DNA from: Deltaproteobacteria bacterium
Lineage (GTDB): Bacteria > JAMCPX01
DNA: 52,813 nucleotides
Reading direction: 5' to 3'
NCBI GenBank assembly: GCA_023382265.1
Contig: JAMCPX010000024.1
Location: forward strand, 1 to 52,813
The notes beneath the pieces are model-generated. The model was not told where the DNA came from. It saw nothing but the letters and a program-made list of their open reading frames with translations, and ran no database searches. Both the position numbers and the translations under genes were made by a program. This document shows, in pieces, positions 2,280 through 52,736 of this stretch (the first letter of the stretch is position 1; each line of letters begins with the position of its first letter).

Positions 2280-2299
2280 CTTATAAAAGGAGGTATAAT

Positions 2300-4090
2300 A
2301 TGAAGTATAAAAGTATTCCTGGAATGTTTTTCTCGCAAGCCGACAAGTATGGGGATAAGCCTGTTCAACAATACAAAAGGGCAGGGCAATGGGTGAATAT
2401 TACATGGAATCAAATGAAAGGTGAGGTAGAACATATTGCCCTCGGTCTTTTAGAACTCGGTTTAAACAAGGGTGAAAATGTCTGCATACTTGCTGAGAAC
2501 AGGCCTGAATGGGCACATGCCGATCTTGGTATCGTAGCCGCCGGCGGTGTAAATGCAGCTATATATGCAACAAATACACCTCAGCAGGTTGAGTACATTA
2601 TTAATGATTCAGAGGCACGATTTATATTTGCATCAAACAAATTACAGCTTGATAAGATTATGAAGATAAGATCTAACATCCCAAAATTAAAAAAAGTGAT
2701 CGTATTTGACTCTCCCGATACAAACCCTGATCAGAATTTTATAATCAGTCTTGAATCATTAAAAAGCCTTGGCGCATCTGCAAAAGATAAAGCAGCTATT
2801 GAAAAACGTTATAATACTATACAGCCGGATGATCTGCTTACAATTGTATACACATCCGGTACAACAGGCGAGCCGAAAGGAGCCATGCTTACGCATAAAA
2901 ATTTACTTACAAATTGTGAAGACGTTGAAGCATATGTGCCGATAAAGGATACGTACCTCGCTTTATCGTTCCTGCCTTTAAGTCATTCATTTGAGAGAAT
3001 GGCGGGCTACTACACAATGCTGTTCTACGGCGCAACCATAGCATATGCAGAAAGTATAGATAAGGTAATAAGCAATATCGCAGAGGTAAAACCCAATGTT
3101 ATGGTATCCGTGCCAAGGGTTTATGAAAAGATGTACGCAAAGATCATTGAAGGAGTAGAGACTGGTTCTTCTTCAAAAAAGAAGATATTTTACTGGGCAC
3201 TTGATACCGGCAAACAAACAATGCCTTATAAACTTGGCGGTAAACCGATTCCATTTGGCTTAAATCTGAAATATGCAATTGCAAAAAAGCTTGTATTCAG
3301 AAAGATTAAGGAGATCCTTGGCGGGAGATTGCTGTTTTTTGTATCAGGCGGGGCTCCGCTATCTAAAGAGCTCGGCGAGTTTTTCTATGCCGCAGACATA
3401 ATGATTATAGAAGGCTATGGATTGTCGGAAACATCCCCTGTCCTTACGGTAAACCCTTTTGGCAAAATGAAGTATGGAACAGCAGGCAAGCCTATTCCAA
3501 ACTGTGAAATAAGAATTGCTCCGGACGGCGAAATACTGGCAAAGGGGCCCATGATCATGAAAGGCTATTTTAAAAAACCCGAAGCAACACAGGAAGTCAT
3601 AGATAAAGACGGCTGGTTTCACACAGGTGATATCGGCTTTCTTGATAATGAGGGTTATCTGCATATAACGGATCGAAAAAAAGACCTTATTGTTACAGCG
3701 GGCGGAAAGAATATTGCTCCGCAGCCTATCGAGAACCTTTTAAAAATGAACAGGTATATCGAGCAGGTAGCTATGATAGGCGATAAAAAACCATACTGCG
3801 TTGCTCTCGTTACTCCGAAATTTGATGCAGTAGAGGCTTATGCAAAACAGAACAATATCCTTTACAAGGATAGAAAAGAGCTTGTTAGCAACACTCAGGT
3901 TGTTGCACTTATCCAAAACGCAATTGACAATGTTAATGCATCACTTGCCAAGTATGAAACCATAAAAAAGTTTAAAGTGCTTCCAACCGAATTTTCTCAG
4001 GAAACGGGTGAATTAACACCAACCCTTAAAATAAAAAGAAGGGTTGTTATGGAAAAATATAAGGATACAATAGAGGAACTGTACGTTTAA
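2300..4090 (+). CDS. Long-chain fatty acid-CoA ligase (FadD15-type)
   Basis: AMP-dependent ligase that activates fatty acids to acyl-CoA for degradation or lipid synthesis. The ATP-binding motif YTSGTTGEPKGAMLTH is near residue 182. GYGLSETSP is near 371, the hinge region GWFHTGDIGFLD near 438, TAGGKNIAPQPIEN near 466, and the C-terminal lysine lies in TPTLKIKRR near 580. The 596-residue length and the YGLSETSP and NIAPQPIE signatures match the FadD15/long-chain family rather than the acetyl-CoA synthetase upstream. The ATG has AGGAGG 7-8 bases upstream. It is followed at a short distance by an MBL hydrolase and a GlcD-like oxidase on the same strand, a likely lipid or organic-acid catabolic cluster. 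Confidence 0.9.
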   Translation: MKYKSIPGMFFSQADKYGDKPVQQYKRAGQWVNITWNQMKGEVEHIALGLLELGLNKGENVCILAENRPEWAHADLGIVAAGGVNAAIYATNTPQQVEYIINDSEARFIFASNKLQLDKIMKIRSNIPKLKKVIVFDSPDTNPDQNFIISLESLKSLGASAKDKAAIEKRYNTIQPDDLLTIVYTSGTTGEPKGAMLTHKNLLTNCEDVEAYVPIKDTYLALSFLPLSHSFERMAGYYTMLFYGATIAYAESIDKVISNIAEVKPNVMVSVPRVYEKMYAKIIEGVETGSSSKKKIFYWALDTGKQTMPYKLGGKPIPFGLNLKYAIAKKLVFRKIKEILGGRLLFFVSGGAPLSKELGEFFYAADIMIIEGYGLSETSPVLTVNPFGKMKYGTAGKPIPNCEIRIAPDGEILAKGPMIMKGYFKKPEATQEVIDKDGWFHTGDIGFLDNEGYLHITDRKKDLIVTAGGKNIAPQPIENLLKMNRYIEQVAMIGDKKPYCVALVTPKFDAVEAYAKQNNILYKDRKELVSNTQVVALIQNAIDNVNASLAKYETIKKFKVLPTEFSQETGELTPTLKIKRRVVMEKYKDTIEELYV

Positions 4091-42511: not shown

Positions 42512-44077
42512 ATGGCACGCAAGGTAAAGACTGATAAAAAGCAGAACAGCAACGGCGCAACACTTGGGTTTGAAGAAAAACTGTGGCAGGCCGCAGACAA
42601 GATGCGCAACAACATGGACGCAGCCGAGTACAAACACGTTGTTCTTGGCCTTATCTTTCTGAAATATATATCAGACGCCTTCGAGGAACTTCGCGCAAAA
42701 CTTGATGCAGATAAAAAGAGTGGAGCAGATCCAGAAGACCGTGATGAATACATGGCTGCGAATATCTTCTGGGTACCCAAAAAAGCCCGCTGGGCATACC
42801 TTCAGGCCAATGCAAAACAACCCAGCATAGGCAAGCTCATTGATGATGCCATGTTTGCTATCGAGAGCGACAACAAGGTATTGAAAGGTGTGCTGCCGAA
42901 GACCTATGCACGCCAGGAACTCGACAAGAAGCGGCTCGGCGAGCTGATAGACCTTATCGGTACTATAGGCATGGGCGACAAAGAGAACCGTTCAAAAGAC
43001 ATTCTCGGCCGTGTTTATGAATATTTTCTTTCCGAGTTTGCCAGTGCAGAGGGTAAAAAAGGCGGCCAGTTCTATACGCCGCGATGTGTAGTCCAGACGC
43101 TTGTCGAGATGCTTGCGCCGTATAAAGGCCGCGTATATGACCCGTGCTGCGGCTCAGGAGGCATGTTTGTCCAGAGCGAAAAGTTCATTGAACAGCATGG
43201 CGGAAAGGTCGGGGATATCAGCGTTTATGGACAGGAGTCCAATCCCACGACATGGCGGCTTGCAAAGATGAACCTTGCCATACGGGGTATTGACGCAAAC
43301 CTTGGACAGGAGAATGCAGACAGCTTCCATCGCGACCTCCATCCCGATTTGAAGGCAGATTACGTACTCGCCAATCCGCATTTTAATGATAGCGACTGGG
43401 GAGGTGCGCGTTTGCGTGAAGACAAGCGCTGGAAATACGGCATACCTCCTGTTGGTAATGCTAACTTCGCATGGGTACAGCATTTTATCTACCATTTAAG
43501 CCCGACCGGTATTGCCGGGTACGTACTTGCAAACGGCAGTATGTCCAGCAACACGAGCGGCGAGGGAGAGATTCGTAAAAATATGATAGAGGCCGATCTG
43601 GTTGATTGCATGGTTGCCCTGCCGGGTCAGCTTTTCTACTCTACACAGATACCGGTATGCCTGTGGTTTGTAGCACGTGATAAGAGAAACAACCGGTTCC
43701 GTGACAGACGCGGGCATGTACTTTTTATTGATGCCCGTAATCTTGGCACCATGATCGACCGTGTGCATAGAGAGCTTACAGAAGAAGACATCCATAAAAT
43801 TACTGACACCTATCACGCGTGGCGAGGAGACCTTAAGCAGAAATATAAAGACATTCCGGGCTTCTGCAAATCAGCCACCCTTGATAAAATCCGTAGTCAC
43901 GGACACATTCTCACCCCGGGACGGTACGTCGGAGCAGAGGAAATCGAGGATGACGGCGAGCCATTCGATGAAAAAATGACCCGACTCACCAAACAGCTCG
44001 AACAACAATTATCAGAAAGTGCAAAACTCGAAGAGCAGATTCGGAAAAATTTGAAAGGGTTGGGATATGGGTTATAG
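42512..44077 (+). CDS. hsdM: Type I restriction-modification methyltransferase subunit HsdM
   Basis: N6-adenine DNA methyltransferase that with HsdS modifies host DNA. The N-terminal helical domain (residues 15-150) is followed by [20 protein letters not shown] near 188, SAM motif [10 protein letters not shown] at 210-219 and the catalytic motif at 288-291, which reads NPHF where NPPF is usual. The following residues FNDSDWGG fit the family. The 521 residues are typical and the frame is intact. It is the first gene of the island behind a 17-base-spaced promoter. Its last codons overlap a 49-codon small frame. Whether the NPHF variant is active cannot be judged from sequence. Confidence 0.94.
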
Positions 44078-44216
44078 AAAAGGGTGGTCACTGCCCGCAC
44101 AATTCAGATACGGCGCTACCCGCATGACAATTATTTCACGCACCATCACCGCTGCCCTACAAAACAGCCTTCCCAGCATTAAAGATCTGGAAAAGGAGCA
44201 TGGGTATGGCGAGTAA
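44067..44216 (+). CDS. Small reading frame (49 aa) bridging hsdM and hsdS
   Basis: An ATG at 44067, 11 bases inside the hsdM end, opens a 49-codon frame ending in TAA at 44214-44216, 11 bases inside the favoured hsdS start. AAAGGG lies about 8 bases upstream of the ATG. The product is basic in its first half ([18 protein letters not shown]) and ends in [12 protein letters not shown] do not recognise it. It fills an otherwise empty 122-base gap and would couple translation of hsdM to hsdS. It may be a real small protein or the remnant of a lost gene. Confidence 0.4.
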
Positions 44217-45441
44217 AAGAGTAATGATTCGGATAGGTGATATAGGAAGAGTTGTAACTGGTAAGACACCACCGACAGCTGATACTGAAAATTATGGTGG
44301 CAAGCTACCTTTTATTACCCCATCCGATATGGATGGCAATAAATATATATATCGAACCGCGCGTACTATAAGCGAAAAGGGAGCTAAACCTCTAAAGAAT
44401 TTGCACGTACCACCAAAAACAGTTTTTGTTTCTTGTATCGGATCTGACATGGGTAAGGTTGGTATGACAAGAGTTGAATCGGTGACCAATCAGCAGATCA
44501 ATTCTATTGTTGTAAAGAACGGAATAGACCCAGACTATATCTACTACAATCTTTACTCACGTAAAAATGAATTTCAGCGATTAGCGACAAGCGGCTCGGC
44601 ACAACCTATACTTAATAAAGGTCATTTTTCGCAGCTGAAAATTATTCTACCGACTATTGCCGAGCAGCGTGCCATTGCTCGTGTCCTTGGCACGCTTGAC
44701 GAAAAGATCGAACTGAACAAGAAAATGAACGAGATACTTGAGGCAATGGCAAGGGCAATATTCAAATCATGGTTCATTGATTTTGACCCCGTTCATGCCA
44801 AAGCCAAAGGCCGCGATCCCAAACTCCCCAAACAAATCACCGACTTATTTCCCGATAGCTTTGAACAATCCCAGCTTGGGGAAATTCCGAAGGGTTGGAG
44901 AGGAGAGACTCTTGGTAGTATCCTTGAGCTAGCTTATGGTAAAGGCCTCAGAGAACAAGACAGACGCTTGGGGTATATCCCTGTACACGGCTCCAATGGT
45001 CAAGTTGGCTGGCATGACAAAAAACTTGTTGACGGGCCAGGTATCATAGTTGGGCGTAAAGGTAACCCGGGGATTGTAACATGGTCTCACACAGACTTTT
45101 ACCCTATTGATACTACATTCTACGTAGTACCTAAACAGAAAGAATTAAGTCTTTATTACTTATTCTATGCTCTTCAGTTACAAGATTTGCCTTCGCTAAA
45201 TGCAGATTCCGCAGTGCCTGGACTAAACCGCCACCTCGCTTATATGAACTTGCAAGTTGTTCCAGAAAATAAAGTAGTAAAAATATTCGATGCATTTGTT
45301 ATACCGGTTTATAAGAAAATATTTAAAAATGAACAAGAAATTAGCATTCTCGCCGCCATCCGCGACACTCTTTTGCCAAAGCTATTGTCGGGTGAGATAA
45401 GGATAAAGGATACGGAGAAATTTGCGGAGGCAACTATATGA
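44206..45441 (+). CDS. hsdS: Type I restriction-modification specificity subunit HsdS
   Basis: Determines the DNA sequence recognised by the methylase and nuclease. Two target-recognition domains are evident: residues 1-150 (IGDIGRVVTGKTPPTADTEN) and 225-370 (GWRGETLGSILELAYGKGLR), each followed by the conserved helix region; the central helix contains LPTIAEQRAIARVLGTLDEKI and the linker FKSWFIDFDPVHAKAKGR. I prefer the second ATG at 44206, as AAAGGAG is 8 bases upstream; the ATG at 44200 is only 2 bases from it. The gene ends in ATGA overlap with the nuclease gene. Only one copy exists, so no shufflon is seen. Confidence 0.93.
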   Translation: MASKRVMIRIGDIGRVVTGKTPPTADTENYGGKLPFITPSDMDGNKYIYRTARTISEKGAKPLKNLHVPPKTVFVSCIGSDMGKVGMTRVESVTNQQINSIVVKNGIDPDYIYYNLYSRKNEFQRLATSGSAQPILNKGHFSQLKIILPTIAEQRAIARVLGTLDEKIELNKKMNEILEAMARAIFKSWFIDFDPVHAKAKGRDPKLPKQITDLFPDSFEQSQLGEIPKGWRGETLGSILELAYGKGLREQDRRLGYIPVHGSNGQVGWHDKKLVDGPGIIVGRKGNPGIVTWSHTDFYPIDTTFYVVPKQKELSLYYLFYALQLQDLPSLNADSAVPGLNRHLAYMNLQVVPENKVVKIFDAFVIPVYKKIFKNEQEISILAAIRDTLLPKLLSGEIRIKDTEKFAEATI

Positions 45442-46658
45442 CTGATCAGTTATTTTCAATAGAGAATCTTTACAGTTTTTTACAAGATCGTGAACAAGGG
45501 ATGTTTCAAGAAATTGAGGAAATGCAAGCGGATAGATTACTCAACACTAAAGTTGACGATTTATATGATTATTTTGAACAAAGGTATAAAATTGACATTC
45601 CAAGTTTGAAAGAAAATGAAATCGCTACCGATCAAGAAGAAGCGAATGTAGACATTAGTCGCGATCCTTATCGTAGAATAGTTGCCCCAGGAAGCCCATT
45701 CTACATTAAAGGAACAGCATTGAAATTTTTTGTTCCTTTTGAAGGTGATCCGGAATTGTTAAAATACAAGCCGTCTACTTTTACCTACAATTCTCCGCTC
45801 TGTACGATTAAACAAAATGAAATCGTATTTACTTATACGCGAACGGATCATAACGCTGAAGCAGTAAAAGCGGAATTTACACGCCACTTATCTGTTGTCC
45901 GTCAAAACCTTAAATCAGTAATAAATGATGCTGGGGCGTTTAACAATTCGATACGAACAAAAGCACAAAATAGGATAGAGATACGCCGACAGAAGTTACT
46001 TAATGATCAGGGATTGGCAGCTTCCTTAGGTTTTCCTCTCAGACGAAGAGATAATGCGCCACAGACATTTGCTGTTCCAACGGTTCGTAAAAAAATTCAA
46101 ATACCTGTACCTTCAAGCAGCACCCCTTTAGCTCCAGAACCAACACTTGATATGAAAGAATATGAGAACATACTATCAATCATTTCTAATATGGTTAAGG
46201 TAATAGAAAGAAGTCCAAACTCTTTTAAAACAATACGTGAAGAAGATCTAAGACAACACTTCTTGGTGCAGCTAAATGGCCAATATGAAGGACAAGCTAC
46301 TGGTGAAACCTTTAATTCTCAAGGCAAGACGGATATATTGATAAGGCATGAGGACAAAAATATTTTCATTGCCGAATGTAAATTCTGGTATGGTCAGGAA
46401 TCTTTAACAAAAGCAATAGATCAACTACTGGGCTATATCACATGGCGTGATACCAAAACGGCTTTATTGATATTCAACAGGAACAAAAACTTTTCATCGG
46501 TTTTATCTAAGATTCCCGAAGTCATAAAAGCTCATCCAAATTATAAGGAGGCATTATCGTATAGTTCTGCATCTGGTTTTAGATACATTCTACATCACAA
46601 AGATGATAAATACCGCGACATCATATTAACTATACTTGCTTTCGAGGTGCCTGCATGA
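45438..46658 (+). CDS. PD-(D/E)XK-like nuclease of unknown family inside the hsd operon
   Basis: I do not recognise a named family over the full 406 residues. The C-terminal third has a restriction-endonuclease-like core: GKTDILIRHEDKNIFIAECK gives Asp 299, Glu 313 and Lys 315, the PD-(D/E)XK spacing. It is followed by a helix with AIDQLLGYITWRD and the strand TALLIFNRNKN. Residues 1-130 are acidic and possibly helical; 140-240 are basic and helical with a Pro-rich linker near 235-260. The start overlaps hsdS by 4 bases, and the stop overlaps a 12-codon mini-frame before the OLD gene. Visibly more AT-rich than hsdM. A defence nuclease acting with the OLD protein is a reasonable inference. Confidence 0.78.
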   Translation: MTDQLFSIENLYSFLQDREQGMFQEIEEMQADRLLNTKVDDLYDYFEQRYKIDIPSLKENEIATDQEEANVDISRDPYRRIVAPGSPFYIKGTALKFFVPFEGDPELLKYKPSTFTYNSPLCTIKQNEIVFTYTRTDHNAEAVKAEFTRHLSVVRQNLKSVINDAGAFNNSIRTKAQNRIEIRRQKLLNDQGLAASLGFPLRRRDNAPQTFAVPTVRKKIQIPVPSSSTPLAPEPTLDMKEYENILSIISNMVKVIERSPNSFKTIREEDLRQHFLVQLNGQYEGQATGETFNSQGKTDILIRHEDKNIFIAECKFWYGQESLTKAIDQLLGYITWRDTKTALLIFNRNKNFSSVLSKIPEVIKAHPNYKEALSYSSASGFRYILHHKDDKYRDIILTILAFEVPA

Positions 46659-46693
46659 AAGAGACAGAGCTATTTGCAGAGAAAATGATATGA
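46655..46693 (+). CDS. Twelve-codon mini-frame between the nuclease and OLD genes
   Basis: ATG at 46655 overlaps the nuclease stop (ATGA) and the frame ends in TGA at 46691-46693, overlapping the ATG of the OLD gene at 46690. The peptide MKETELFAEKMI is too short to call a protein. It may relay ribosomes across the 31-base gap, or be the leftover start of a displaced gene. Confidence 0.3.
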   Translation: MKETELFAEKMI

Positions 46694-48390
46694 AAATCAG
46701 TCATCTATCAATAAGAAATTTCCGTTCCATAGAAGAACTCGATATAGAACTACCACAGATTTGTGCTCTTGTTGGTCCAAACAATGCTGGCAAAAGCAAT
46801 ATTCTTCTTGCTATTTATAAAGTTCTTGGCCATGAATGGGCGAATGTTAATTCGTTTGATGAGGACGATGTCTACCTAAGAAACAATGAAAGAGATATAA
46901 CATTATCCTTAACTTTTGAGTCACCTCTTCCATATCAAAAATTCAAGAATTCAGAACCAACAAATATTCATGGCATTTCATTTTTCTATACGCGTTATAA
47001 AGTTGGAGAAAACAAAGGTCAAAGGAGATTAGAACAGCAATGTTTTGATGATAAAGGCAAAGTGGTAAATATATTAGCAAAAGCACCCCAAAAAGGTGAA
47101 CAACACCAATACCAGCCACTTCTTGGAATACCATCAGAAGTAAAAGAAAGCATACCTCTTATATACATTGGGACAAATCGCTCTTTGAAGGAACAGTTAC
47201 CCGCTGCAAAATATTCTCTGCTTCGACAGCTATTCGAAGATATAAATAAAGACTTCCACTCTTCAAGTCAAATAGCTCAAGTCACACAAGACGATGGCAC
47301 ATTTAAAAGCATCACCAAGTCTGAGAAGTTCTACAAGTTGTTAGAAGAAGCGATGGATTGTCTTAGAACAGATTCTTTTGTGGAACTGGAAACCGCGATA
47401 AAAAAGCACGCATTGCAACAACTTGGTTTTGATCCCGATGTTGATACCGATAAACTGGATTTCTACTTTGCCCCCTTTAATGCTATTGAGTTTTACAAAT
47501 CTCTTGATCTTCGGGTTAAAGAAGGGAAATTTAATATAAGTGCAACAGAGTTAGGGGGTGGAATACAAAACGCTCTTGTCTTATCCATACTACAGGCCTT
47601 CGAAGAAAGGAGGAAAAGAGGAGCCATTTTTCTTATAGAGGAGCCAGAGATGTTTCTTCACCCTCAGATGCAGCGTACATTGAACAAAACACTGCGGCAA
47701 ATCGGCGAAAATAATCAAATAATCTATACTACTCATTCTACTCATTTTGTTTTGATTCCTAACTATCATGAGATTCTACTTGTGCGTAAAGAAAGTAACG
47801 GTTCTTATGTTATTAAATCGAACCTTCCAAAAGATGAACATATGAAAGAAAAAATGATTAAAGAACTTGACCCAGAAAGAAACGAATTGTTCTTTGCATC
47901 GAGACTGTTACTTGTTGAAGGGGATACTGAGAAGCTCGCCCTACCTGAATATGCCAAGAGGCTTAATCTGGATTTAGACAGAGAAGGAGCGACAATTGTG
48001 GAGGTGGGGGGCAAACGGAATCTGCCCGAATTTGCTGACGTGGCCACCTCTTTTGGTATTCCAACAGGAATTCTTTATGATATTGATTCCTCAGATTTTG
48101 ATAATAAAGAAGATGAGAAGAAATTTAACAAAGGTCTTGATGATAGAAACAATCCTTCAAAAAATATTCGTGTTTGGGCACTTGATAAGAAATATGAAGA
48201 TCATTTAAAAAGAGCTCTCGGAGGAGATGGTAAGTATGCTGAAGTTTGTCAAAAGTATTCTCATACAGGTAAACCTACCAAAGCACGTCTTATAGCAATG
48301 GATATGGCATTGCCTATACCGGAACCAATAGAGGGTGTACTAACATGGCTTGCCAACAGAGAAGGTAAGAAGCAGAAATATAAAATATAA
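46690..48390 (+). CDS. OLD-family ATPase-TOPRIM endonuclease
   Basis: ABC-type ATPase joined to a TOPRIM nuclease, the architecture of phage P2 Old and GajA. From the ATG at 46690 (566 residues) the Walker A is GPNNAGKSN at 29-37. The signature region ATELGGGIQNALVLS near 280 and Walker B IFLIEEPEMFLHP near 310 precede the H-loop IIYTTHSTH near 345. The TOPRIM domain begins with LLVEGDTEKLALPEYAKRL near 410 and has GILYDIDSSDFDN near 455. A longer frame from a TTG at 46636 lies inside the previous gene and is unlikely. No UvrD-like helicase is next to it, so it is not a standard Gabija pair. Codon use is AT-rich. Confidence 0.9.
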   Translation: MKISHLSIRNFRSIEELDIELPQICALVGPNNAGKSNILLAIYKVLGHEWANVNSFDEDDVYLRNNERDITLSLTFESPLPYQKFKNSEPTNIHGISFFYTRYKVGENKGQRRLEQQCFDDKGKVVNILAKAPQKGEQHQYQPLLGIPSEVKESIPLIYIGTNRSLKEQLPAAKYSLLRQLFEDINKDFHSSSQIAQVTQDDGTFKSITKSEKFYKLLEEAMDCLRTDSFVELETAIKKHALQQLGFDPDVDTDKLDFYFAPFNAIEFYKSLDLRVKEGKFNISATELGGGIQNALVLSILQAFEERRKRGAIFLIEEPEMFLHPQMQRTLNKTLRQIGENNQIIYTTHSTHFVLIPNYHEILLVRKESNGSYVIKSNLPKDEHMKEKMIKELDPERNELFFASRLLLVEGDTEKLALPEYAKRLNLDLDREGATIVEVGGKRNLPEFADVATSFGIPTGILYDIDSSDFDNKEDEKKFNKGLDDRNNPSKNIRVWALDKKYEDHLKRALGGDGKYAEVCQKYSHTGKPTKARLIAMDMALPIPEPIEGVLTWLANREGKKQKYKI

Positions 48391-48402
48391 GGAGTCACTA
48401 TA

Positions 48403-48852
48403 ATGGCAGAAATAAACCTTACCCAATCTGAAGCCAACTTACTCATCTCGATGGAGAAGCATCGAGTGGATGAGACCAAATGGGAATATCCGGGGCTTGG
48501 TGGTGCCATTTGTATCCCACTAACCTCTGCAAATAAGAGAGAAAATTTCTTGCTTGATATGAGCCGTGGCCGAATTAATTTGTTAAAAGGTAAATATCAA
48601 AACCGTTCCCGGAATGTTATCGTTCTTGTACGTCTATGTTTTGGTGGCCCACCGCATCATAACCCAGATGGTCAAGATGTGATACCACCCCATTTGCACG
48701 TTTACCATGAAGGATTTGGTGATAAATGGGCTATAGAAGTTCCGCCAGATAAATTCGGTAACCCTGCTGATCTATGGCAGACATTGCATGATTTTATGGA
48801 ATTTTGTAATATCGTAGAGCCACCAATTATTGAGAGAGGACTTTTTATATGA
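48403..48852 (+). CDS. DUF6978-like protein
   Basis: A 149-residue protein that I match by memory to the DUF6978 family: [19 protein letters not shown] at the start, [20 protein letters not shown] near 53, then [18 protein letters not shown] near 97 and a tail [14 protein letters not shown]. The His-rich centre ([22 protein letters not shown]) might bind a metal, which is inferred. The family is usually found beside a DUF1828 protein, as here, with a 4-base overlap to it, and in mobile or defence neighbourhoods. Biochemical function is not known to me. The ATG has AAGGAG 8 bases upstream. Confidence 0.8.
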
Positions 48853-49613
48853 TTGATGAAATTCAAAAGCTATTGGACGATTACGTAAATTGGCTAAAGG
48901 ATAAAACAAAACTTCGTCAGTTGAAAGATATAGTCGAGATTACTACACCTTATCTCGACAGACACAATGATTATCTACAGATATATGCCAAACGTGACAA
49001 TGGAGGATTCTTTCTTACCGATGACGGCTATATTATCACAGACTTGAAGCAGTCAGGCTGTGAGCTGGAAAGCAAAAAGCGAAAGGACCTGCTGACTATG
49101 ACACTCAACGGCTTTGGCGTTAGATTGGATGGGGATGCATTAGTGGTACATGCTTCGCCGGACAATTTCGCTATGCAGAAACATAATTTAGTCCAGTCGA
49201 TGTTAGCAGTTAACGATCTTTTTTACCTTGCAGAGCCTATCGTTGCCAGTCTTTTTCTGGAAGATGTTACTGCATGGCTTGACTTGAATGAGATCCGTTA
49301 TACCCCAAAAGTAAAGTTTACAGGCAAGACAGGTTATGATCATTTGTTTGATTTTGTTATTCCAGCTTCAAGAAGACGCCCGGAACGTATCTTAAAAGCG
49401 ATCAATTCACCTAATCGAGACACTGCCCAGGTTGTAGCTTTTTCCTGGATAGATACAAAAGAAGTCAGACCTGCAAATTCAAAAGCATACGCTGTTTTAA
49501 ACGATATAGAACATGCTCCGTTGGTATCAGTACTGGACGCACTGAGAAACTATGATGTATACCCAGTGCTGTGGAGTAAGAGAGAAGAAATAAAAGAAGA
49601 GCTTGCCGCATAA
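48849..49613 (+). CDS. DUF1828/DUF1829-domain protein
   Basis: A 254-residue protein with an N-terminal DUF1828 region (residues 20-110: [34 protein letters not shown]) and a C-terminal DUF1829 region (about 150-240: [30 protein letters not shown]). The two form a common pair of uncharacterised domains. Coupling by 4 bases to the DUF6978-like gene suggests a two-protein module. It may be an accessory or toxin-antitoxin-like unit of the island, but I cannot assign a function. It is followed by 111 bases that hold only a small remnant frame before hsdR. Confidence 0.82.
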
Positions 49614-49614
49614 A

Positions 49615-49728
49615 ATGCAGATGAATAACCCAACCTCCGATTTAATTCCGCCGCACGGCGGGTATCGCAAGCTGAAAAGCTTTCAAATTTCACAGTTGGT
49701 GTATGAGGTCGTAAGGAAAACCCAATGA
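49615..49728 (+). pseudogene. N-terminal remnant of a four-helix-bundle (S23-like) protein gene
   Basis: A 37-codon frame starts right after the DUF1829 stop and ends in TGA overlapping the hsdR ATG (ATGA). Its product contains IPPHGGYRKLKSFQISQLVY, which I recognise as the opening of four-helix-bundle proteins related to 23S rRNA intervening-sequence proteins, genes often seen inside type I RM loci. The normal protein continues for over 100 residues, so about three quarters is lost and the frame runs out at hsdR. It may still serve as a coupling leader for hsdR. Confidence 0.55.
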
Positions 49729-52700
49729 GTGCTGTTGCAGAATCCACGGTAGAGCAGGCTGCTCTGGATTGGTTCAGGGAACTTGGATATGGGATTAAAT
49801 TTGGGCCAGAGATAGCAGCAGGGGAGTTGTTTGCAGAGCGCACAAGCTACAGCGAAGTCATCCTTGAAAACAGGCTCCACACTGCATTGCTAAACATCAA
49901 TCCAAAAATCCCTTCTGAGGCTATTGAAGATGCCTTCCGAAAGATTTCCCGAATCGACTTTCCATCACCCGTGCAAGCCAATCATCTGTTTCATCAGATG
50001 CTGGTAAATGGCGTGGATGTAGAATATCGTGCAGACAATCGGGTGGTGCATGATATTGTTCGGCTTGTTGATTTTGAGAACCGGGATAATAATGATTGGT
50101 TGGTAGTCAATCAGTTTACCGTGATCGAAGGCCAAAGTAACCGACGCCCCGATATCATTCTTTTTCTCAACGGCCTGCCGCTTGTTGTGATCGAACTCAA
50201 AAATCCTGCCGACGAAAATGCCACGATCTGGACAGCGTTCAATCAGCTTCAGACCTACAAACAGCAGATCCCCTCTCTTTTTACTTTCAATGAGGTGCTT
50301 GTTGTGTCAGACGGACTTGAAGCGCGTTGTGGCTCTCTGACCGCTGATCATGAATGGTATCTGCCATGGCGTACGATCGAGGGGCAGAAACTTACCTCAG
50401 AGTCTGTTCCACAATTAGAAGTGCTTATCAAGGGAATGTTTGATCGTAACAGGTTCTTGCGCTTTCTCAGGCATTTTATCGTTTTTGAGGAAGAAAACAA
50501 CGGATTGAGTAAAAAGCTGGCAGGCTATCATCAATACCATGCTGTTAATGTTGCAGTGCTGGAAACAATCAGGGCTTCTTACGAGCGTAGTTTACCCTTG
50601 TATATTCTGGAAGGCGAAGAAGCGAAGCAGGGCATTTACCAGACAATATCGGGCCACGGTGTTCAGGGTGACCATAAAATAGGGGTTGTATGGCATACCC
50701 AAGGATCAGGGAAAAGCCTGACCATGGCGTTTTACGCAGGACGGATTGTTCTTGAGCCCGCAATGAAAAACCCAACACTTGTAGTCATTACTGACAGAAA
50801 TGACCTTGACGATCAGCTCTTTGGTACCTTCTCCAGGTGTCATGAACTCCTGCGACAGAAGCCTGCGCAGGTGGAGAGCCGCGCGCAGTTGCGTGAGCTG
50901 TTACAAGTTGCATCAGGCGGTATTGTCTTTACGACCGTTCAAAAGTTCTTGCCGGAACAAAAAGGCGACAACTTTCCCAAACTTTCAGACAGACATAATA
51001 TTGTGGTTATTGCGGATGAGGCGCATAGGAGCCAGTATGATTTTATAGACGGGTTTGCGCGGCACATGCGGGATGCCCTGCCGAACGCCTCTTTTGTCGG
51101 GTTTACCGGAACACCGATAGAACTTACCGACAAAAACACACGAAATGTTTTTGGCGATTACATAAGCATTTACGACATTCAGCGGGCTGTGCAGGACGGT
51201 GCAACCGTGCCGATCTATTATGAGAGCAGACTCGCCAGGCTTGAATTGAAAGAATCAGAAAAGCCACGTCTTGATGAAGAGTTTGAGGAAATTACAGAAC
51301 AGGAAGAAGAAGCATACAAAGAAAAACTAAAAACGAAATGGGCGCAGCTTGAGTCCGTAGTAGGTACGGACAAGCGCATTCGGCTTATAGCACAGGACAT
51401 AGTAAACCACTTTGAAAACCGTCTCGATGCTATGGACGGGAAGGGAATGATTGTGTGCATGAGCCGCAGGATATGCATTGAGCTTTACAATGCCATCATC
51501 AAGCTTCGGCCTGGATGGCACAGTGATGAAGATGATAAGGGGTTCTTAAAGGTTGTCATGACCGGCTCTGCATCCGATCCGCTCGATTGGCAGCAGCATA
51601 TAAGAACCAAGCCAAGGCGTGAAGCGATGGCCAATAACTTCAAAAAAGTAGATCATCCTTTCAAATTAGCCATTGTCCGGGATATGTGGCTGACAGGGTT
51701 TGATGCCCCAAGTCTGCACACGATGTATGTGGACAAACCTATGCGTGGTCACAGCCTGATGCAAGCCATTGCAAGGGTCAACCGGGTATTCAGAGACAAA
51801 CCCGGAGGGCTAGTTGTGGATTATCTCGGACTTGCAGATTATCTTCGTAAGGCGCTTGCCAACTATACAGAGAGCGGGGGTACAGGAAGAACAGCCATTA
51901 ATCAAGAAGAGTCAGTTGCCGTGATGATGGAAAAATATGAAGTTTGCTGTGATTTGTTCCACGGCTTTGACTGGACGCTCTGGACAACGGGTTCTCCGAT
52001 TGAGCGTATCCGCCTGCTGCCTATGGCGCAGGAGCATATTCTGGAACAGGAAGACGGGAAGACCAGACTATTAAAAGCTGTAACAGAACTATCTCAGGCT
52101 TTTGCCTTGTCTGTTCCGCATAATAAGGCAATAGCTATCAGGGACGATGTGGCTTTCTTTCAGGCAGTTAGATCCGCGCTGAGCAAGTCAGGTGCACCAA
52201 GTCCTAAAGCAGAGGAAACGCTGGAGCATGCCATCAGACAACTTGTTTCCAAGGCTATAGCATCGGATCAAGTCGTTGATATATTTGCAGCGGCAGGGCT
52301 CAAAAAACCAGACATTTCAATTCTATCCGATGACTTTCTGGCAGAAGTGCGTGGCATGCCCCAGAAAAACCTTGCTGTCGAACTTCTCCGCAAGCTTCTG
52401 AATGACGAGATCAAGTCACGAGCGCTGAAAAACCTCGTACAGTCCCGCTCATTTGCAGAGATGCTTGAACGCTCCATACGCGCGTATCGGAATAGGGCCA
52501 TTGAAAGCGCTCAAGTGATTGAAGAGCTGATTGTTATTGCGAAAGAAATGAGGAAAGCAAACCTCAGAGGTGAGAAACTCAATCTTTCTGATGATGAGGT
52601 CGCATTCTACGATGCTCTGGAAACCAATGATAGCGCAGTAAAAGTCCTCGGTGACGAGACACTGAGAATCATCGCACAGGAGCTTGTTAAAGCAGTGCAT

Positions 52701-52736
52701 AACAGCGTTACCCGAATCGAGTCATGTAAAATCTAA
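49725..52736 (+). CDS. hsdR: Type I restriction subunit HsdR, probably C-terminally truncated
   Basis: Cuts unmodified DNA after ATP-driven translocation. The nuclease core has Asp 143 in RRPDIILF and ELK at 157-159. The SF2 motor has the Walker [10 protein letters not shown] near 325, the helicase motif IADEAHRSQ near 429 and [11 protein letters not shown] near 465, then [15 protein letters not shown] near 658. The last seven residues RIESCKI and the stop are encoded by the right arm of the 101-bp inverted repeat. Family members I recall continue about 50-60 residues further with a conserved helical tail, so an insertion seems to have cut the gene. Whether it still works is unknown. Confidence 0.92.

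Follow-up and report, generated by a model that had tools for sequence, protein, structure and literature searches.

Defences embedded in type I restriction operons have reportedly been described by Payne et al. in 2024, a work cited in the paper on TgvAB. According to the cited passages of the respective reports, PrrC is a latent toxin gene lying inside the EcoprrI type IC restriction-modification (R-M) operon (PMC3874165; the embedding is also described in PMC2610378), and its product is an anticodon nuclease silenced by the R-M enzyme itself. TgvAB consists of two genes situated between hsdR and hsdS in the type I cluster of V. cholerae VPI-2 (PMC11411939) and represents GmrSD-related type IV restriction. 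In the laboratory-tested HipAD system (DS-6) of E. coli, a DUF1829 protein, with DUF3037 as its companion domain, partners a HipA-like toxin/kinase, and the authors hypothesise a toxin-antitoxin system in which the DUF1829 protein is antitoxin-like (PMC13092281).

The gene pair studied here, encoding a DUF6978 protein and a DUF1828+DUF1829 protein (DUF1828/29), is already present in PADLOC-DB as the defence candidate PDC-M24, the model of which comes without a description of mechanism. The adjacent M24A and M24B genes of this candidate were both found at our locus. The model PDLC04538 matched residues 5-148 of the DUF6978 protein (E 2.1e-54) and PDLC04539 matched residues 4-254 of DUF1828/29 (E 5.9e-106), nearly the full length of both proteins, and no difference from PDC-M24 was seen. 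A full-text literature search, which extended to the accessible parts of papers outside bioRxiv preprints, found no description of the DUF6978-DUF1828/29 pair there. What is new here is the fold assignments, a hint of similarity to the toxin domain Ntox24, and viral half-proteins, while the pair itself is an already catalogued candidate.

The window, which is the whole 52,813-nucleotide stretch of DNA analysed, belongs to a host assembly of 2.63 Mb and contains the following features.

42512 to 44077, + strand: hsdM (Pfam N6_Mtase, E 3.2e-110, and HsdM_N)
44200 to 45441, + strand: hsdS (Pfam Methylase_S, E 4.9e-32)
45438 to 46658, + strand: PDC-S54 candidate, a cargo gene encoding 406 aa (PADLOC, E 1.9e-159)
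46684 to 48390, + strand: OLD-like ATPase with TOPRIM, cargo (Pfam AAA_15, E 2.6e-36, and OLD-like_TOPRIM, E 3.2e-20; PADLOC Old, E 3.4e-54)
48389 to 48394, + strand: AAGGAG, a Shine-Dalgarno-like motif in the sequence, 8 bases 5' of the DUF6978 start
48403 to 48852, + strand: DUF6978 protein, 149 aa, PADLOC PDC-M24A, proposed toxin/effector
48849 to 48852, + strand: ATGA start/stop overlap of the DUF6978 and DUF1828/29 genes, read from the sequence
48849 to 49613, + strand: DUF1828+DUF1829 protein, 254 aa, PADLOC PDC-M24B, proposed antidote/sensor
49725 to 52736, + strand: hsdR, directly 3' of the pair (Pfam T1RH-like_C, E 1.6e-106, SWI2_SNF2 and HSDR_N)

The genes are co-directional in the order hsdM, hsdS, PDC-S54, OLD-like ATPase, DUF6978, DUF1828/29 and hsdR, and the pair is the last cargo in the hsdS-hsdR interval of this type I restriction operon. 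The GC content (0.36-0.42) and GC3 (0.29-0.37) of the four cargo genes were below those of hsdM and hsdR (0.47-0.49 and 0.48-0.53), and the composition of hsdS was cargo-like (GC 0.42, GC3 0.37). No DUF6978 match was obtained in the other eight of the nine genomes of the host phylum in the collection. The PDC-S54 and OLD-like genes would also overlap if the latter starts at TTG 46636.

The likeness of the pair to PrrC is one of location, both lying within the operon of a type I R-M system (between hsdS and hsdR in our case); PrrC differs in being an anticodon nuclease that the R-M enzyme silences. The two TgvAB genes likewise lie inside a type I cluster, but no GmrSD-related family was matched at the window by Pfam. 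A DUF1829 protein is shared with HipAD, the companion domain being DUF1828 instead of DUF3037; a HipA-like kinase was absent beside the DUF1829 protein of the window, the neighbours of which are DUF6978, the OLD-like gene and hsdR. We tentatively favour the reading, with a probability of roughly 0.4, that the two genes constitute an anti-phage module of the toxin-antitoxin or abortive-infection-like kind, autonomous and spread by horizontal transfer, here carried as cargo between hsdS and hsdR, with DUF6978 as the toxin and DUF1828/29 as both antidote and sensor.

The two proteins were assigned by Pfam to DUF6978 (PF22398, E 8.5e-44) and to DUF1828 (PF08861, E 1.4e-27) plus DUF1829 (PF08862, E 3.7e-29). 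The dN/dS values against the closest relative, L014, were 0.10 for DUF6978 and 0.03 for DUF1828/29, rough figures at high dS (1.2 and 2.1, respectively; dS was saturated in 13 of 15 pairs for DUF6978 and in 14 of 15 for DUF1828/29), and with such low ratios both open reading frames are truly coding. When the window was counted together with the 80 relatives, 61 of the 81 loci had an in-frame ATGA overlap, which is therefore not a matter of chance. Two small, overlapping, co-oriented and adjacent genes that are inherited together correspond to the layout of a type II toxin-antitoxin system. A separate promoter for the pair was considered and rejected, as three promoter-like sites were found against 3.7 expected; terminator-like sites were likewise absent.

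Species genomes were scanned for DUF1828/29, and of the 356 relatives obtained the best 80 (63-88% identity) were analysed as loci; these came from a wide range of bacterial phyla and from some archaea. A DUF6978 frame was found upstream of DUF1828/29 in 71 of the 80, two of these being damaged (a frameshift in L016 and apparently an in-frame stop in L079). Gene starts were taken by script as the first start of each frame, often 5' of the true one, and the neighbour table displayed an antisense frame (c5) at the DUF6978 position in nine loci. The remaining nine relatives lacked a DUF6978 frame. Two of them lay at contig ends, L022, L078 and L080 retained DUF6978 remnants, and no DUF6978 trace was detected upstream of DUF1828/29 in L048, L083, L084 and L090. 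In L090, the start of the DUF1828/29 frame is overlapped by the gene of a CARF-domain protein (877-1656), reminiscent of a change of partner, and in L048 an AbiJ-like protein of 446 aa (2294-3634) replaces DUF6978 and has a 4-base overlap with the DUF1828/29 start.

As the best-80 set was too close to the window to yield a family-wide rate, a DUF6978-centred sample was added around the genomes G060, G480 and G483, which were picked because they bear the pair. The searches covered 398 Pseudomonadota, 395 Nitrospirota and 400 Chloroflexota genomes and detected DUF6978 in 4, 26 and 13 of them, respectively (the centre genome counted in each), a patchy distribution. DUF1828/29 adjoined 43 of the 44 DUF6978 hits, and the lone exception, L114, was a match below the cut-off. 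Eight of the 44 had already been sampled in the first set (L014, L016, L019, L021, L062, L067, L074 and L087). Wider stretches were fetched for 40 hits, 35 of them new, excluding L114 and the hits L111, L134 and L154 already among the 80. The original prediction that the two genes form a coupled two-protein module was thus borne out by the overlap and by the constancy of the partnership seen from either side.

Restriction genes were frequent around the pair. The fetched stretch contained hsd genes in 51 of the 80 relatives, which, given the closeness of this set to the window, is not a family-wide rate, and in 22 of the 39 for which at least 5 kb was available on both sides. Within 5 kb, hsdS on the same strand lay upstream in 23 of 46 loci and hsdR downstream in 27 of 52, with both in 14 of 39. 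An HsdR-cluster gene was present in 47 of 81 loci, an approximately hundredfold excess over a chance rate of about 0.5% per 17 kb estimated from 20 carrier genomes (about 82.5 Mb), in which the HsdR domain PF11867 has 26 copies, a rate that is underestimated, as the carrier genomes of L062 and L092 gave no PF11867 match in spite of an HsdR-cluster gene at the locus. The best HsdR segments in the loci had 22 to 84% identity to the HsdR of the window, and different operons have therefore taken up the pair. In the DUF6978-centred sample, hsd genes were found in 14 of 40 loci (10 of 35 among the new ones), and the pair was located between hsdM and hsdS in L180, L181 and L199; for the other 26 of the 40, the 3 to 16.5 kb that were fetched contained none.

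These figures bear on the possibility that the pair is an accessory factor of type I restriction, in which a chaperone-like protein would control the assembly or turnover of HsdR. The hsdR frame shares a 4-base overlap with the DUF1829 stop in 10 of the 41 loci having hsdR downstream within 5 kb, and a chaperone-like fold was predicted for part of DUF1828/29 (see below). We nevertheless consider such a role very unlikely, since the pair occurs without hsd genes in phages, on plasmids and in those 26 DUF6978-centred loci.

Other defence genes were also found in the vicinity. Five of six sampled representatives of neighbour clusters matched PADLOC models (an AbiP2 reverse transcriptase, PDC-S02, PDC-S05, an AbiJ-like protein and SoFic), and the sixth matched none. 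A scan of 117 neighbouring genes (up to two per side, below 1,300 aa) from 32 loci, of which L019, L047 and L093 have an hsd gene and the other 29 none, reported as family counts and not per gene, contained two matches to type III methylases and two to type III restriction enzymes; other neighbours were ordinary genes, such as the release factor beside L018. An AbiP2-like reverse transcriptase is carried as cargo between hsdS and the pair at L035 (5604-7541).

The pair was also found on mobile elements. In the Lactobacillus prophage Lj965, the Streptococcus phages MissF and Javan642 and the Staphylococcus phage 37, it is flanked by the integrase on one side and by a repressor or HTH regulator on the other. 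The satellite Javan357 has the same placement, with a DUF6978 gene (L012, 2514-2978) that is missing from the public annotation. In Latilactobacillus phage TMW 1.1365 P3, which has no annotated repressor, the pair is again upstream of the integrase, bringing the phage or satellite records with this position to six. The IncP plasmid pRSB223 bears the pair beside a CHAT-domain protein matching PADLOC BovA, and another copy is located on an Acetobacter plasmid. DUF6978 is reduced to a remnant in Lactobacillus intestinalis, and in S. epidermidis the gene is annotated with 78 aa where a 149-aa open frame with full-length similarity is present. When the phage members were used as queries against named phages, all ten DUF6978 records fell within the 17 DUF1828/29 records; the DUF6978 protein of the window as query had no match among named phages or viral contigs. 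With copies in prophages, a satellite and plasmids, the pair is autonomous.

The position beside integrases, the plasmid copies and the loci lacking hsd genes are what one would expect if the pair selfishly served mobile elements, for addiction or superinfection exclusion, and its placement in R-M operons were hitch-hiking with no functional link to restriction. We regard this as quite unlikely. The pair recurs with hsd operons as different as the HsdR identities above indicate and in varying slots (S-R, or M-S in the three loci named), and addiction and defence are in any case mutually compatible. The defence or addiction role put forward in the original prediction accordingly gained support from context, namely the PADLOC candidate, the R-M operons and the integrase-side copies in phages and a satellite. 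A predominance of housekeeping contexts, which would have spoken against that proposal, was not seen among the closest relatives with their frequent hsd genes, but the DUF6978-centred loci were mostly free of hsd within the sequence fetched. A defence role of the pair is well supported by context.

The conservation of DUF6978 was concentrated in the centre of the protein.

48631 to 48705, + strand: conserved centre of DUF6978 with R77, C79 (usually D), H85, N87, H97, H99 and Y101 (conservation in 78 and 124 sequences)

Each of H85, H97 and H99 was conserved in 77 of 78 aligned sequences, and position 79, a cysteine in the copy of the window, was aspartate in 72 of the 78. The weighted core calculated from 124 diverse sequences (effective number 34.9) consisted of N87 (1.00), H85 (0.97), K19 (0.94) and H97/H99 (0.91). 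With its three conserved histidines and an aspartate the protein could bind metal, and some loci do lie beside ordinary genes, as might be anticipated for a metal-binding or housekeeping pair having no part in defence. Such a pair appears scarcely credible in view of the patchy presence in all three phyla, the mobile contexts and the PADLOC candidate status. The conserved set of H, R, D and N would also fit a metal-independent RNase.

An AlphaFold2 model of DUF6978 based on the 78-sequence alignment (mean pLDDT 92.7) was mostly beta with two helices. Fold searches with this model gave no match (Foldseek best E 0.085 against the PDB and 0.11 against viral models; VIA Z at most 4.8), and a sequence search of solved structures with DUF6978 gave no match; the absence of a fold match in these predictions does not show that the fold is new. 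The only other Pfam family matched by more than two of the 78 members was Ntox24 (PF15529), with 28 members matching at E up to 5. The best match, with E 0.0077, scored 16.9 bits against the Pfam cut-off of 24, and the DUF6978 protein of the window did not match Ntox24 even at E up to 5. When ten members were rescanned singly, three matched Ntox24, two of them only at E of about 0.1, over residues 63-116 or less, a range that includes R77, D79, H85, H97 and H99. The pattern R-x-D, H and P-H was common to three Ntox24 sequences.

Profile comparison by hhalign of DUF6978 with these three sequences scored 26.5, against 21.1 for the best of 200 column shuffles and 8.8 for the reversal; a more diverse profile scored 25.1 against 20.6 for the best of 150 shuffles. 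The hhalign probability was low, at 37% for a single Ntox24 sequence and 3.6% for three (32% in a rerun on the same three and 29% with the diverse profile), and the alignment covered only 27-28 columns and stopped at H85, leaving out H97 and H99. Ntox24 is reported as all-beta, with Y, H and H given in the table and one conserved histidine in the text of the source passages, to occur also in toxin-antitoxin systems and to be conceivably a metal-independent RNase (PMC3482391, Zhang et al.). DUF6978 compares with this as a mostly-beta model with two helices and with H85, H97, H99 and Y101 conserved, and shares the R-x-D ... H ... P-H pattern at a similarity below the cut-off. Unlike DUF6978, Ntox24 forms the terminal part of a longer polymorphic toxin in Nostoc and Streptomyces records. 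The sequence resemblance of DUF6978 to this toxin domain is weak and recurrent.

The AlphaFold2 model of DUF1828/29 from an 85-sequence alignment (mean pLDDT 85.9, pTM 0.49) consisted of two domains joined by an uncertain hinge at 126-132.

48885 to 49226, + strand: DUF1828 structural domain, residues 13-126, predicted YbjN/type III secretion chaperone-like fold (model)
49242 to 49610, + strand: DUF1829 structural domain, residues 132-254, predicted PD-(D/E)XK-like fold with no recognisable (D/E)xK (model)

The best Foldseek match of the model was VC1899 (1xmx, E 6.3e-4). VIA-align matched residues 132-254 to AF1548 (1y88, Z 12.0, rmsd 3.1 over 110), Can2 (7bdv, Z 11.2, rmsd 2.9 over 112) and a NucS-like nuclease (2vld, Z 10.9, rmsd 2.2 over 98), which we take to be PD-(D/E)XK proteins, and many members of this fold aligned at Z of 12.0 to 8. 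Residues 13-126 matched 3cxj (Z 9.5, rmsd 3.2 over 106), Spa15 (1ry9, Z 7.9, rmsd 3.1 over 100) and YbjN (6vu7, Z 6.7, rmsd 3.2 over 101), presumably secretion-chaperone proteins, where Z below 8 may reflect a mere common arrangement. A sequence search of solved structures with DUF1828/29 gave two matches, both at chance level. Conserved acidic residues of the DUF1829 domain were D168 (80 of 85 sequences), E179 (82), D202 (81) and D219 (83). The strand following D168 reads Q-T-I in the consensus (183-185), where (D/E)xK is expected, in a register inferred from the strand limits of the model and not from coordinates, and for this reason the predicted domain is taken as apparently catalytically degenerate. 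Alternatively, it might have nuclease activity based on unusual residues.

In another reading, the pair would be a two-subunit defence enzyme, both proteins being needed and neither toxic; DUF1829 would bind or cut phage DNA and DUF6978 would be a second catalytic or sensing subunit. The nuclease-like fold and its four conserved acidic residues point in this direction, and the unrelated pair TgvAB requires both of its genes, according to the cited part of that report (PMC11411939). Against it stand the missing (D/E)xK and the persistence of DUF1828/29 without intact DUF6978 in 9 of 78 loci not cut at a contig end. L164 and L165, in which DUF6978 is open although DUF1828/29 is broken, favour it in turn and count against a strict toxin, as a strict toxin should forbid such a state. 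We judge the two-subunit enzyme to be somewhat unlikely.

Both samples together contained 13 loci with an open DUF1828/29 beside a lost or broken DUF6978. Among the 44 DUF6978-centred hits, some of whose breaks are possibly assembly errors, DUF6978 alone was broken in five (L147, identical to L016, and L148, L149, L150 and L163), DUF1828/29 alone in L164 and L165 with L135 ambiguous, and both genes in L113. This asymmetry of five against two or three was not significant (P 0.07 to 0.13), the binomial values being only a guide for related loci that are not independent. The pooled comparison of 13 against two or three (P 1e-4 to 4e-4) was rejected, as 9 of the 13 came from the set found through DUF1828/29. 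At L188 (7962-9515; the locus is identical to L150), a 517-aa frame of another family carries the fused end of DUF6978, next to an open DUF1828/29. We infer that DUF6978 is the toxin and DUF1828/29 the antidote.

Under the preferred reading of a toxin-antitoxin or abortive-infection-like module, DUF6978 would be a mostly-beta, histidine-based RNase related to Ntox24. The N-terminal, secretion-chaperone-like domain of DUF1828/29 would hold this toxin, and the degenerate PD-(D/E)XK-like domain at the C-terminus would recognise nucleic acid or a partner. Phage attack would disturb DUF1828/29 or, at this locus, the restriction complex, as in PrrC/EcoprrI, and DUF6978 thereby freed would halt the infected cell. 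By analogy, the pair perhaps guards the restriction operon in the manner of PrrC.

Five IMG/VR contigs (L105-L109) encode the DUF1828 half alone, with 125-149 aa and with no DUF1829 nearby; four of these proteins are mutually related. The gene lies directly 3' of a Pfam DNA methylase in L109 (D12-class) and L108 (C5), and directly downstream of a weak VRR-NUC match in L107. All 11 tested invariant residues were kept in three of the five, and L109 has lost two otherwise invariant residues. The dN/dS of the viral genes was 0.41 to 0.72 in pairs with synonymous changes, at 8 to 11 nonsynonymous differences, too few for selection on them to be shown. In L105 (5001-5450), the DUF1828 half is fused to the C-terminus of a GapR-like protein; a weak remnant of DUF6978 (E 0.015) lies just upstream, and this copy may be a captured fragment. 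The stand-alone viral DUF1828 could, judging from sequence, be a decoy antitoxin, which offers a lead to counter-defence. A fuller scenario, decidedly improbable as a whole, would have a chaperone-fold antitoxin, DUF1828/29, with a dead nuclease as nucleic-acid sensor, hold an Ntox24-like RNase toxin and booby-trap type I operons, the phages answering with DUF1828 decoys, some of them beside methylases.

A widespread pair on the public list of defence candidates has now been given a proposed division of labour and the candidate key residues H85, N87, H97 and H99. Each half of DUF1828/29 now has a predicted fold, and a viral counter-measure is possible. If the preferred reading is true, this would be another restriction operon carrying a second, suicidal line of defence.
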